Positions 53,185-61,465 of a stretch of DNA of 64,000 nt are shown here, piece after piece. The DNA lies in NCBI RefSeq assembly GCF_900215605.1, contig NZ_OBEL01000001.1, positions 558,001-622,000 on the forward strand, in the 5' to 3' direction. Under the pieces are notes generated by a model. The model ran no database searches. It saw only the letters and a list, made by a program, of their open reading frames with translations, and had not been told where the DNA came from. Position 1 is the stretch's first letter. Every line of letters begins with the position of its first letter. Origin of the DNA: Cohaesibacter gelatinilyticus. Lineage in GTDB: Bacteria; Pseudomonadota; Alphaproteobacteria; Rhizobiales; Cohaesibacteraceae. The translations under genes were made by a program, and so were the position numbers.

Positions 53185-54183
53185 ATGATCACTCGTCGGT
53201 CCTTGCTCGGCTATACTTCATCCATCATCGGCTCTAGTCTGCTTTTGGGGGCGGGCAGTTCTATTGCAACTGCAGCCAATGCTGCCAGTGCGCTAACCCT
53301 TTATGGGCCTCCAGTTGGGCCATCTGTCACGCTGGCCTATATGGCCAAACAGGGTTTGCTGAGCAAAGCTGCAGGCGGTACGGTTGATTTCGAAATCTAT
53401 AAATCCCCTGATGTATTGCGCGCCAATTTTGTTTCTGGTGATTGGAAACTGGCGGTCACTCCATCTTATGTCGCTGCCAATCTGGCCAACAAAGGCCTTC
53501 CGGTAAAAATGCTCAACATCATGACGTGGGGCATGCTCTATGTTCTGAGTTTTGATGAAGCCATCAAAAAGCCGGAAGATCTGGTGGGCGAGACTGTAGG
53601 CATGTTCTTCCGCAATGATATGCCGGATCTGGTCTTTGGCAGAGTGATGGAAGAAAAAGGGCTGAAGGTCGGAACCGACTATAAACTCCACTATGTTGGT
53701 ACTCCGTTTGAAGCTCTGCAATTGCTGCTGTCTGGCCGTATCAAACATTGCGTTCTGCCTGAGCCTGCAGCGACTGCAGGCATGGTCAAAGGTAAGAAGT
53801 TAGGCAAAAAGCTGTATCGCTCGCTGGATCTGGCCAAGGAGTGGGCATCTGTGACTGGTGGGGAAGGGCGCTTCCCAATGGCAGGCGCCATGGTGCATCA
53901 GGATTTGCTGGATAAGAATCCGGCACTGATCGAAGAATTCCAGAAACAGGCTATGGAAGGCACCAAATGGGTACAGGGCAATCCCATGGAAGCGGCCAAG
54001 GTTGCGGCCGAGACCATGCCTCTGCCGGCACCTGTCATCGCCAAATCTATTCCTCATACGCACCTGACCATGGAGCGGGCTAGCGATATCCGCAATGAGC
54101 TTGAAACCTTCTATGGTCTGCTGGCTGAAAAGAACCCGGCCATCATTGGCGGCAAGCTGCCTGACGCCAGCTTCTATCTGTAA
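53185..54183 (+). CDS. NitT/TauT-type ABC substrate-binding protein with Tat-like signal (copy 1)
   Basis: This 332-residue NMT1/TauA-like periplasmic protein has a signal peptide with a twin-arginine start (ITRRSLLG), followed by a hydrophobic stretch and cleavage near Ala-Asn-Ala-Ala (about 33). The mature protein begins LTLYGPPVGPSVTLAYMA and ends AIIGGKLPDASFYL. AAGGAG precedes the ATG. It heads an operon with a permease, an ATPase and two NnrS-like genes, and is a paralogue of the protein at 60461. The substrate is unknown; the family spans nitrate, sulfonates, thiamine precursors and others. Confidence 0.85.
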   Translation: MITRRSLLGYTSSIIGSSLLLGAGSSIATAANAASALTLYGPPVGPSVTLAYMAKQGLLSKAAGGTVDFEIYKSPDVLRANFVSGDWKLAVTPSYVAANLANKGLPVKMLNIMTWGMLYVLSFDEAIKKPEDLVGETVGMFFRNDMPDLVFGRVMEEKGLKVGTDYKLHYVGTPFEALQLLLSGRIKHCVLPEPAATAGMVKGKKLGKKLYRSLDLAKEWASVTGGEGRFPMAGAMVHQDLLDKNPALIEEFQKQAMEGTKWVQGNPMEAAKVAAETMPLPAPVIAKSIPHTHLTMERASDIRNELETFYGLLAEKNPAIIGGKLPDASFYL

Positions 54184-54207
54184 TCTGGCAAGGGAGGGGG
54201 AGCGAGC

Positions 54208-54987
54208 ATGATAGCGAAAACCGGCTCATTCATTGCCCGGATCTGGTCCGGCTGGGGAACTTTGGCTGGGGTCTTCATGATCATTGCATTGTGGCAAGTT
54301 GGTTATGAGAGCTTCGGCGCGCTCGTTCTTCCTGATCCCCTACAGTCCTTCTCACAATTGTTGACGATCTTTCAGCAATCCGAAGGGCTGGACTATATCG
54401 CCATTACTGCCCGTAGAGCCATGATCGGCTTTGCATTGGCCAGTTTGATTGGTGCTTGCATCGGTTTGCTTGCAGGATGGTCCAATACATTGGCCATCCT
54501 GTGCCGCCCATTTCTGACTGTCATGCTGGGCGTGCCGCCCATTGCTTGGATCGTGCTGGCGCTTCTCTGGTTCGGCGGCAGCGATGGTACGCCTGTCTTT
54601 ACTGTTTTCATTTCCACTGTGCCCTTGGTTTTCGCCGGAGCTTTGCAAGGCATCCGAATGCGGGATGCTACATTGGATGAGATGGCAGATAGCTTCGAAA
54701 TTCCCTGGTGGGACAAGGTTTGGCATGTCCAGATCCCACAAGTCATCTCTTACTTGTTCCCAGCTTGGGCTACTGCACTCGGTCTCAGCTGGAAGGTGGT
54801 TGTTATGGCAGAGCTTCTCTCATCCAGCGAAGGTATTGGTGCAGGCCTGGCAGAGGCGAGAGTGAATATCGATACCGTCACCACCATGTCCTGGATCGTT
54901 GCTGTTGTTGGCCTGTTGCTGTTTCTGGAAGGCTTCTTTCTCAATCCCATAAAAGAGCATGTGGAGGGTTGGAGAAATGATGTTTGA
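54208..54987 (+). CDS. ABC transporter permease, NitT/TauT (SsuC-like) type
   Basis: This 259-residue inner-membrane permease has about six helices and an EAA loop (LDEMADSFEIPWWDKVWHVQIPQVISY). The WKVVVMAELLSSSEGIGAGLAEARV segment is typical of SsuC/TauC permeases. A strong GGGAGGGGGAG lies upstream. Its last 8 bp overlap the ATPase start. Confidence 0.9.
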   Translation: MIAKTGSFIARIWSGWGTLAGVFMIIALWQVGYESFGALVLPDPLQSFSQLLTIFQQSEGLDYIAITARRAMIGFALASLIGACIGLLAGWSNTLAILCRPFLTVMLGVPPIAWIVLALLWFGGSDGTPVFTVFISTVPLVFAGALQGIRMRDATLDEMADSFEIPWWDKVWHVQIPQVISYLFPAWATALGLSWKVVVMAELLSSSEGIGAGLAEARVNIDTVTTMSWIVAVVGLLLFLEGFFLNPIKEHVEGWRNDV

Positions 54988-55780
54988 CCCTGGAAGACTA
55001 GAGACAGCGCAGGATGTTTCATCGCCCGATCCTGTTTTGAAAGTCAAAATAACTGATCATCGCTACCATCCGTTGCAACAAGTGCTTGATGAATGTGCAC
55101 TCGGTATCAATAAAGGTGAGATTGTCAGTCTTATTGGGCCCTCGGGCTGTGGCAAGTCAACATTTCTTAAAATTGCTGCCGGGCTGTTGGAGCCAAGCGA
55201 AGGCAAAGTGGTGAGCAAGACAAAAGATAGTGCTGTCCTGTTTCAGGAGCATCGTCTTTTGCCTTGGAAGACATTGATCGACAATATGAGCTTCGGCTTC
55301 AGAGGGCGCACAATCCCTTCCGATGAGAAAGCAAGGCGTCTCAGAAAAGCCGCCCAGATCATGGGTTTTTCCGACGAAGATATGGTGAAATATCCATCCG
55401 AACTGTCAGGTGGAATGCGTCAGCGTGCGGCTCTTGCCCGTGCTCTGATGATAGAACCGGACTTACTCTTTCTGGATGAACCATTCAGTGCCTTGGATAT
55501 TGGCAGACGCCGGGAAATGTATCGCTTGCTGCTTGGTGAAGTGCGTCAACGAAATTGCACAGTTTTGATGGTGACCCATGATGTGTTTGAAGCGCTTTCC
55601 TTGAGTGACCGCGTCATTATCATGTCTCCCGACCCAGGGGCGTTCTTGAAAGAAATCAAGGTCAGTATCCCTTTGGAAGAGCGCACACGCCATATGGTCG
55701 CGGATCTGGAAGCAGAATTGCTGTGTGATAGCGAAGTAGCGGAATTGTTCAGAATGCATGATTGGGATCAGGTACTATGA
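54980..55780 (+). CDS. ABC transporter ATP-binding protein, NitT/TauT (SsuB-like) type
   Basis: This 266-residue ATPase has Walker A GPSGCGKST, the Q-loop LFQEHRLLPWKTLIDN typical of nitrate/sulfonate transporters, the signature LSGGMRQRAALARAL, Walker B LFLDEPFSALD and VTHDVFEAL. I chose ATG 54980 (GGAG 5 nt upstream, overlapping the permease end); in-frame ATGs at 54959 and 54977 are alternatives. Its stop overlaps the next gene (ATGA). Confidence 0.9.
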   Translation: MFDPGRLETAQDVSSPDPVLKVKITDHRYHPLQQVLDECALGINKGEIVSLIGPSGCGKSTFLKIAAGLLEPSEGKVVSKTKDSAVLFQEHRLLPWKTLIDNMSFGFRGRTIPSDEKARRLRKAAQIMGFSDEDMVKYPSELSGGMRQRAALARALMIEPDLLFLDEPFSALDIGRRREMYRLLLGEVRQRNCTVLMVTHDVFEALSLSDRVIIMSPDPGAFLKEIKVSIPLEERTRHMVADLEAELLCDSEVAELFRMHDWDQVL

Positions 55781-60336: not shown

Positions 60337-60436
60337 AGCCTATCCCCGAAAAGTTGTTCGACTTTTCGGACAAGGATTGGCGTGAACAAGAACCCATCCC
60401 CGGAAAGCTGTTCGACTTTTCGGATAAGGATATGCG
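60334..60436. repeat. Tandem pair of CCCGAAAAG palindromic repeats
   Basis: Two head-to-tail units, about 60339-60380 and 60393-60436, each read CCATCCCCGAAAAG...TTGTTCGACTTTTCGGA-AAGGAT with few differences. Each folds as CCGAAAAGT/ACTTTTCGG. The first begins TAGAGC, sharing the TAG stop of the barrel gene, exactly as at 15399 after puuD. They lie in the 124-bp gap before the second binding-protein gene. Confidence 0.8.
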
Positions 60437-60460
60437 TCAAATAAACTCTAGGTATTCGCT

Positions 60461-61465
60461 ATGCTTAATCGTCGTGACTTTCTTGCCTGGTCGGCTGTGG
60501 GCCTCAGCACCACTCTTACGGCTGGTGCAGTCAACTCACTCTTTCCTGCTCCAGCCATCGCACAAGGCTTGGACAGTCTGACCATCTATGGTCCTCCAGC
60601 CGGACCGTCCATTGCTCTGGCCCATTTGGTCCAGTCTGGGGCTCTGAAAGACCATGCCCAAAAGGTGAAGTTCGAGCTATGGCGCAATCCTGATCAACTG
60701 CGGGCGGGGGTGCTGTCTGGAAAAATGCAGATTACTGGTACGCCAAGCTATGTGGCGGCCAACCTCTATAACCGTGGTGTCGATGTCCATATGGGCAGCA
60801 TCGTGACATGGGGCTTGCTCTACTTGATGTCTCGCGAAGGCAAGGTCTCTTCTATCAAGGACCTTCAAGGTAAGACGATCCTCATGCCATTTAAAAATGA
60901 TATGCCGGATCTGGTCTTCCGTGCCATGGCGGCAAAAGTTGGTATGAAAGCAGGTCGCGATTTCAAACTGCAATATACCAGCACGCCGCCTCAAGCCATG
61001 AAAATGCTCATTGCTGGCAAAGCCGAAATGGCGGTGCTGCCAGAACCTGCTGCAACTGCATCCCAGATGATGGGCATGAAAAGCGGTGTTGGTATCACCC
61101 GTGCATTGGATATGCAGAAAGAGTGGGGTGGTACCATCGGTGGCGGATCGAAGATTCCACAGGCGGGTATGATGATTTCTGGTAAGCTTGCCAAAGAACG
61201 CCCAGAGCTTGTTGATGCCTTCAATAAAGCTATGGTCACATCCGGTCGTTGGACATGCAATAATCCCGCAAGTGCCGCTAAAATTGGCGCAACCTATCTT
61301 GGCCTGAAAGCACCAATTATCGAGCGAGCCATTCCATTCAGCAACATTGATGTGAAATCAGGCAAGGCATCTCGTTCAGAGCTGGAGCGTTTCTATAACG
61401 TGCTCAAAGGCATGTCTCCAGCCATCATCGGTGGTAAGCTGCCTAGTGAGAATTTCTACCTATAG
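60461..61465 (+). CDS. NitT/TauT-type ABC substrate-binding protein with Tat signal (copy 2)
   Basis: This 334-residue paralogue of the protein at 53185 opens with a clear twin-arginine signal (NRRDFLAW), hydrophobic core and cleavage after Ala-Ile-Ala (about 34). The mature chain reads LTIYGPPAGPSIALAHLV and ends AIIGGKLPSENFYL, as in copy 1; FKNDMPDLVFRAM and VLPEPAATASQM are also shared. It is next to the outer-membrane barrel and has no permease of its own, so it probably delivers to the importer at 54208-55780. A strong terminator follows. Confidence 0.86.
   Translation: MLNRRDFLAWSAVGLSTTLTAGAVNSLFPAPAIAQGLDSLTIYGPPAGPSIALAHLVQSGALKDHAQKVKFELWRNPDQLRAGVLSGKMQITGTPSYVAANLYNRGVDVHMGSIVTWGLLYLMSREGKVSSIKDLQGKTILMPFKNDMPDLVFRAMAAKVGMKAGRDFKLQYTSTPPQAMKMLIAGKAEMAVLPEPAATASQMMGMKSGVGITRALDMQKEWGGTIGGGSKIPQAGMMISGKLAKERPELVDAFNKAMVTSGRWTCNNPASAAKIGATYLGLKAPIIERAIPFSNIDVKSGKASRSELERFYNVLKGMSPAIIGGKLPSENFYL

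Follow-up and report, generated by a model that had tools for sequence, protein, structure and literature searches.

A widespread, apparently undescribed import system with a dedicated NnrS protein, probably switched on without oxygen

Here we analyse a gene cluster of Cohaesibacter gelatinilyticus that very probably encodes an import module with its own dedicated NnrS protein. It occupies positions 53,185–61,465 of a 64,000-nucleotide window (contig NZ_OBEL01000001.1, 558,001–622,000 of the forward strand; coordinates below refer to the window) and joins an ATP-binding cassette (ABC) importer to two solute-binding proteins (SBP1 and SBP2), two NnrS proteins and an outer-membrane barrel that lacks a plug domain. 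The same gene order recurs in distant bacteria and is therefore beyond chance, and sites in front of the operon suggest that import is probably switched on without oxygen. The system is widespread and apparently undescribed: no paper in the open-licence literature searched, represented mostly by titles and the beginnings of abstracts and so not amounting to proof, was recognised as describing an SBP–ABC–NnrS module. The features are as follows (Tat, twin-arginine translocation; pLDDT, predicted local distance difference test).

53185–54183, + strand: SBP1, NMT1-type binding protein with a Tat-type motif, partner of the ABC genes (PF13379 34.2 bits, PF09084 27.1 bits)
54208–54987, + strand: ABC permease (PF00528 51.4 bits; highest-scoring named relative SaoP, with 103.6 bits against a cut-off of 295)
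54959–55780, + strand: ABC ATPase (PF00005 105.7 bits; SaoA 175.6 bits, cut-off 360)
55777–57006, + strand: NnrS1, of the ABC-linked NnrS subfamily, with 12 helices and a predicted haem-copper-oxidase-like fold (PF05940 217.8 bits; own clade; histidine pattern)
56999–58171, + strand: NnrS2, an ordinary NnrS (PF05940 338.3 bits; in the tree beside nor-cluster and second NnrS proteins)
58360–60336, + strand: plugless 22-stranded barrel of the OprC/copper-receptor lineage (PF00593 95.2 bits; TIGR01778 235.7 bits)
58489–58641, + strand: barrel residues 44–94, the segment replacing the plug (mean pLDDT; H49/P54 conservation)
60461–61465, + strand: SBP2, NMT1-type binding protein with a Tat-type motif, adjoining the barrel (PF09084 27.9 bits; clade with SBPs beside Cohaesibacter barrels)
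53068–53081, + strand: FNR-type site TTGACGTTGATCAA, about 100 bp 5′ of the SBP1 start, the sole TTGAYNNNNRTCAA match in the window
51316–52221, + strand: upstream LysR-type regulator, a possible local regulator (PF03466 133 bits; also upstream in loci L022 and L023, 90% identical)

An initial annotation made from the sequence had proposed these seven reading frames, which lie where it placed them, and a coupling of the ATPase to the first NnrS. The two genes overlap in ATGA at 55777–55780, and permease/ATPase and NnrS1/NnrS2 overlap as well, so translational coupling is real. ATG 55777 is the more likely start of NnrS1 than the listed TTG; the ATPase has alternative in-frame ATGs at 54977 and 54980, and the barrel start at 58360 is the first possible start following a stop in frame. 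Gaps of 188 bp and 124 bp separate NnrS2 from the barrel and the barrel from SBP2, and base composition is even.

The initial annotation regarded these genes as a single uptake system that reaches from the outer membrane through the periplasm to the inner membrane, and conservation of their order far beyond close relatives supports this. A scan with an SBP profile (one genome per species) found 101 relatives, the best 80 of which correspond to 77 loci, mostly from Alpha-, Beta- and Gammaproteobacteria plus a few other phyla. Gene order was assessed, using profiles built from the loci themselves, at the 68 loci that extend 4.3 kb or more downstream: permease and ATPase stand behind the SBP in 66 and are accompanied by NnrS in 53. 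The full order SBP1–permease–ATPase–NnrS1–NnrS2–barrel–SBP2 occurs in three congeners (L022, L023 and L025), and Cohaesibacter marisflavi (L024/L037) has permease–ATPase–NnrS1–barrel–SBP2, with no SBP1 found there. A search of plasmids returned 61 records, including Agrobacterium, Azospirillum, Paracoccus, Arcobacter, Sulfurimonas, Nitratiruptor and Bartonella, and NnrS accompanies the ABC genes in eight of ten annotated plasmid regions. A single SBP sequence as query recovered 4 of 385 genomes of a class-wide sample at an E value of 1e-30, a cut-off too strict to be useful. The module is present in rhizobia, Brucella, Vibrio, Campylobacterota and Neisseria. A Neisseria gonorrhoeae record (L123:7018–14211) has the order receptor–SBP–permease–ATPase–NnrS; its receptor is spread over two overlapping frames, and for each piece the top ten matches in a set of 64 barrels are all plugless ones. 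Cohaesibacter also holds a second SBP–permease–ATPase set without NnrS (L049:4472–6890, L037:14859–17185), with similar sets in Pleomorphomonas; L037 was scored as NnrS-less as the script picked this second set, and its module genes precede the other SBP. A DUF2478 protein with a weak NTPase_1 match lies just 5′ of the module in Pseudovibrio and G263 (L040:9189–9677, L027:8612–9241), and in a Peptococcaceae relative (L098:7213–13177) two permeases and a CobW-type GTPase are close by and may belong to a system like SAO (selenocysteine-assisted organometallic).

Both NnrS proteins are confirmed as such, far above the PF05940 cut-off of 28 bits. In the tree, NnrS1 falls in a separate clade whose members stand next to an ABC ATPase, and NnrS2 falls with nor-cluster and second NnrS proteins. 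The histidines H66, H320 and H342 are kept in ABC-linked and ordinary NnrS alike, and the predicted structure of NnrS1 is the 12-helix subunit I fold of the haem-copper oxidase superfamily. PADLOC returned no match for NnrS1. An HxYE motif in place of HAHE was considered as a mark of the ABC-linked group and rejected, as it is confined to some lineages. We know of no settled function assigned to nnrS since 2005, when it was termed a hypothetical gene of nitric oxide (NO) regulons. The accessible part of that source (PMC1274295), which so terms it, places nnrS under NnrR and other NO-responsive regulators and assigns Brucella nosA to the NnrR regulon.

That NO genes are missing, as the initial annotation remarked, is true of the window but not beyond it. 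The C. gelatinilyticus genome has a third NnrS just 5′ of norCBQD, plus nosZ, each roughly 0.2 Mb from the cluster along this contig (no match over the cut-off to a Cu nitrite reductase was found in this genome), and modules of relatives lie among nor, nap, nnrU and ubiTUV genes. The annotated order in Agrobacterium sp. 33MFTa1.1 is nor genes, nnrU, ubiX/D, ubiTUV, SBP–permease–ATPase–NnrS and nap genes; ubiTUV is our name for annotated SCP2 and U32-peptidase products, which we take to be these oxygen-independent ubiquinone genes. Across the 77 loci (stretches of 3–21 kb), nor, nap or nnrU matches occur in 19, ubiTUV in 15 and either in 23. The regulator in front is of the Crp/Fnr type in Arcobacter, Diaphorobacter and Pseudomonas nitroreducens, and of the Rrf2 type in Chelatococcus.

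The operon in the window is itself preceded by the FNR-type palindrome TTGACGTTGATCAA, which is not significant alone, given 0.51 expected matches to TTGAYNNNNRTCAA; TTGATNNNNATCAA with one mismatch was found six times against 4.55 expected. Similar sites lie 126–158 bp 5′ of SBP1 in L034, L035 and L036, and 41 of 81 loci have an FNR, NnrR or similar site in front of the operon, against a mean of 6.7 and a maximum of 12 in 30 rounds of shuffling and 4 of 81 when the same test was applied inside the SBP gene. By pattern, there were 16 FNR sites with one mismatch (2.1 expected), 11 NnrR sites with one mismatch (4.1) and 28 of the looser TTGNYNNNNRNCAA (2.6). Sites are present at 40 of 65 loci with NnrS and 1 of 16 without, corrected from the 41/66 and 0/15 given by the script, which had included L037 (whose site precedes its NnrS-less set) among the former; three of the script's 15 NnrS-less loci (L050, L066 and L106) are cut by contig ends. 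Because related loci are not independent, these counts overstate the number of events. We infer that such sites function, in which case import would be induced in anoxia.

Co-occurrence with denitrification genes shows moderate enrichment only. Among genomes with an SBP of at least 380 bits, 10 of 18 have NosZ, against 70 of 329 others (Fisher p 0.002), and 10 of 18 have NorB, against 49 of 329 (p 0.0001), kinship being ignored in both; the 380-bit limit was fixed after the scores were seen, and the counts are genome-wide, with neighbourhoods not inspected per genome. Over all 44 SBP genomes the figures are 24 for NosZ and 14 for NorB, and NorB is not enriched in the 26 genomes below 380 bits (4/26).

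The barrel matches PF00593 and has no Plug domain (PF07715), a feature that the initial annotation had missed. Its model (pLDDT 83.5) has 22 long strands, as in a TonB-dependent receptor, and a search of the whole genome revealed no free-standing plug protein, all three PF07715 hits being in frames of 682–722 amino acids. Residues 1–38 are modelled with pLDDT below 50, and along the segment that replaces the plug, mean pLDDT rises from 56 (residues 41–50) to 92 (residues 91–100); H49 and P54 are conserved at 90% or above across 19 plugless barrels. The resemblance to copper receptors noted by the initial annotation stands as ancestry only: OprC is the best structural match, and the TIGR01778 match (235.7 bits against a cut-off of 472.45) begins at model position 150. 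It does not extend to the copper site. The OprC copper ligands C143 and M147 sit in the plug, according to the accessible part of the source (PMC8610252). The CxxxM half of the CxxxM–HxM site is thus lost because the barrel has no plug, and HxM (H183, M185) is found in the window barrel and in P0007 but is absent from the other plugless rows of the alignment. A profile search for further plugless barrels gave only known proteins; it scored just the candidates sharing most words and was not a census. A further plugless barrel (L030:299–4262), sister to the clade, stands ahead of an ABC permease that carries two BPD stretches. In Sulfurimonas and Nitratiruptor (L116:7732–8679, L120:7985–8938), a small outer-membrane channel (PF13557) rather than a TonB-type barrel lies 5′ of the SBP.

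Both SBPs exceed the PF09084 cut-off of 20.5 bits and have a cognate permease and ATPase. Their assignment as Tat-type proteins agrees with a twin-arginine motif at each N terminus (RRSLLG and RRDFLA), and a simple pattern detected a twin-arginine motif in 86 of 96 SBPs, those of Campylobacterota and several others lacking it. Among 30 diverse SBPs, D78, R81, D147 and R214 are among the invariant residues, and M148, the one Met column above 70%, is Met in 23 rows. The two binding proteins of the window fall into separate supported clades, SBP1 with Pseudovibrio SBPs (no barrel was found at those loci) and SBP2 with SBPs beside Cohaesibacter barrels; a recent duplication was accordingly rejected. 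Because SBPs beside plugless barrels span clades (three changes on the tree), outer-membrane partners seem to have been swapped. A sulfonate affiliation, which the initial annotation had named as counting against its proposal, was not found: SsuA scored 24.2 and 39.6 against 163.5, taurine 23 against 304.25 and, for the permease, ntrB 73.1 against 209.05, and no nitrate model appeared among the hits of either SBP.

Around the operon, the LysR regulator and a TauE/SafE permease lie 5′ (51316–53013); in L022 and L023 LysR still precedes the operon, with no TauE match between it and SBP1. The gap between barrel and SBP2 (60340–60440) contains a stretch of about 40 bp in two closely similar copies, and by eye each copy has a short hairpin. 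Downstream and outside the module is a large ABC-type solute-binding protein (61859–63595; 97% identical in L022 and L023), after which further ABC genes come in L022.

Taken as a whole, the cluster is best explained as an anaerobically controlled importer for one small ligand with NnrS1 as redox partner, a reading that we regard as roughly an even call. The barrel would pass the ligand across the outer membrane, and a Tat-type binding protein would gather it in the periplasm for the permease and ATPase to bring into the cytoplasm. NnrS1 would be a dedicated fourth inner-membrane part, a putative haem protein with a haem-copper-oxidase-like fold that most likely passes electrons to the cargo and so frees a bound metal; haem-bearing membrane reductases free metal from some siderophores likewise. 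Of the cargoes suggested by the initial annotation (copper, a haem-like molecule or a metal complex), the free copper ion is weak because the barrel lacks the CxxxM half and the SBP family lacks conserved Cys or His, and motif and profile tests do not support it; a metal chelate or another small ligand could still be carried, and we consider a chelate possible, if short of probable. More tentative still, and unlikely in full, is an ABC importer with, as its fourth subunit, a haem protein of respiratory-oxidase fold that performs a redox step in nutrient uptake while the cell respires anaerobically; in this lineage the importer would be supplied by a naturally plugless, TonB-independent descendant of a TonB receptor that is closed by a short N-terminal segment or by SBP2.

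Several observations weigh against the main interpretation, with NnrS1 as redox partner of an importer for a metal chelate. No column of the 30-row SBP alignment is mostly Cys or mostly His, and the invariant D78, R81, D147 and R214 suit an organic anion equally. H68, H267 and H289 are mostly or wholly lost from ABC-linked NnrS (H68 in 23/67 against 34/35 ordinary NnrS; H289 in 0/67 against 30/35), so a copper site in NnrS1 is doubtful, and hhalign gave NnrS–NorB profile probabilities of 0.2% (NnrS1 set) and 0.1% (other NnrS). NnrS is absent at 14 of the 68 assessable loci, L037 aside (with it, the 15 comprise eight Pleomorphomonas-type, three from other phyla, two Cardiobacterium and one Rhodovibrionaceae), and none is annotated in the plasmid regions of P. 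nitroreducens and Diaphorobacter. The barrel has a patchy distribution, being present in 4 of the 17 congeners searched; next to that of L030 no NMT1 SBP was found; and 5 of the 18 genomes with an SBP of at least 380 bits match neither NosZ nor NorB.

In the plainest alternative, the system would import an organic anion or cofactor, free of metal, that the cell requires in anoxia (such as one that can be made only with oxygen), and NnrS1 would guard the importer against NO instead of acting on the cargo. We consider this unlikely on balance, yet the charged or polar SBP invariants, ubiTUV at 15 of the 77 loci, the small PF13557 channel in Sulfurimonas and Nitratiruptor, and PqqU as second-best model (below cut-off) for the plugged partners L057, L105, L111 and L112 all favour it. 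Against it, the existence of an NnrS clade specific to the ATPase-linked genes points to a part in transport rather than in general NO defence, and an ordinary NnrS2 is also present. A copper importer serving NosZ, with the barrel admitting copper ions (copper being one of the cargoes guessed by the initial annotation) and SBP and ABC proteins carrying them in, fits the OprC ancestry and the NosZ enrichment; it is quite improbable, given the missing plug ligands, the rarity of HxM among plugless barrels, the SBPs without conserved Cys or His, the absence of NosZ from 8 of the 18 genomes and the scores of plugged partners with the copper model (19–33 bits for L057, L105, L111 and L112, and 111.7 for L094, against 472).

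The barrel and SBP2 might instead form a separate unit merely beside an SBP1–ABC–NnrS operon, as the separate SBP clades allow and as 40 of 69 loci, where the 1.5 kb around the ABC-linked SBP hold no receptor, would suggest (L034–L036 are counted there, their barrel lying further on, beside SBP2; 29 have one). This is very improbable, since a plugless barrel stands directly 5′ of the ABC's SBP in Vibrio, Burkholderiales, Rhodovibrionaceae and others, and C. marisflavi combines barrel and SBP2 with ABC genes and NnrS1. We give least credence to an NrtA-type importer of nitrate, nitrite or another nitrogen-oxide anion serving denitrification: the NMT1 family, a best solved relative (3hn0) named 'nitrate transport protein' and denitrification genes as neighbours speak for it, but the nitrate models fail as described above, and a large dedicated barrel should be superfluous for nitrate.

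An NnrS subfamily bound to one ABC importer gives NnrS a testable partner and job, and a natural plugless descendant of TonB receptors bears on the gating of such barrels. The range of the module, which takes in rhizobia, Brucella, Vibrio, Campylobacterota and Neisseria, means that its ligand could be relevant to N2O turnover and to bacteria that live with hosts.

Among known systems, the NitT/TauT importers (SsuABC, TauABC and NrtABCD) share the Pfam families of SBP, permease and ATPase, and differ in that named cut-offs were missed wherever a model matched and in the extra NnrS and barrel here. SaoX, SaoP and SaoA of SAO are the best-scoring named relatives of SBP1, permease and ATPase, all far under cut-off (SaoX 27.7 for SBP1 and 21.4 for SBP2 against 300; SaoP and SaoA as listed above). 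To our knowledge, SAO includes neither NnrS nor a barrel. It is a selenoprotein operon, according to the accessible part of the source (PMC13188914). The TonB-dependent copper receptors OprC/NosA (TIGR01778) are closest to the barrel by sequence and structure, whereas the barrel lacks plug and CxxxM, scores below the family cut-off and is linked to an ABC importer and SBP. Haem-copper oxidases and NO reductases (CcoN, NorB) differ from NnrS1, which gives no profile signal against NorB and has just three nearly invariant histidines. Both NnrS proteins are good members of PF05940, from whose ordinary representatives NnrS1 departs in having shed their additional histidines and in forming a clade of its own beside an ABC ATPase.

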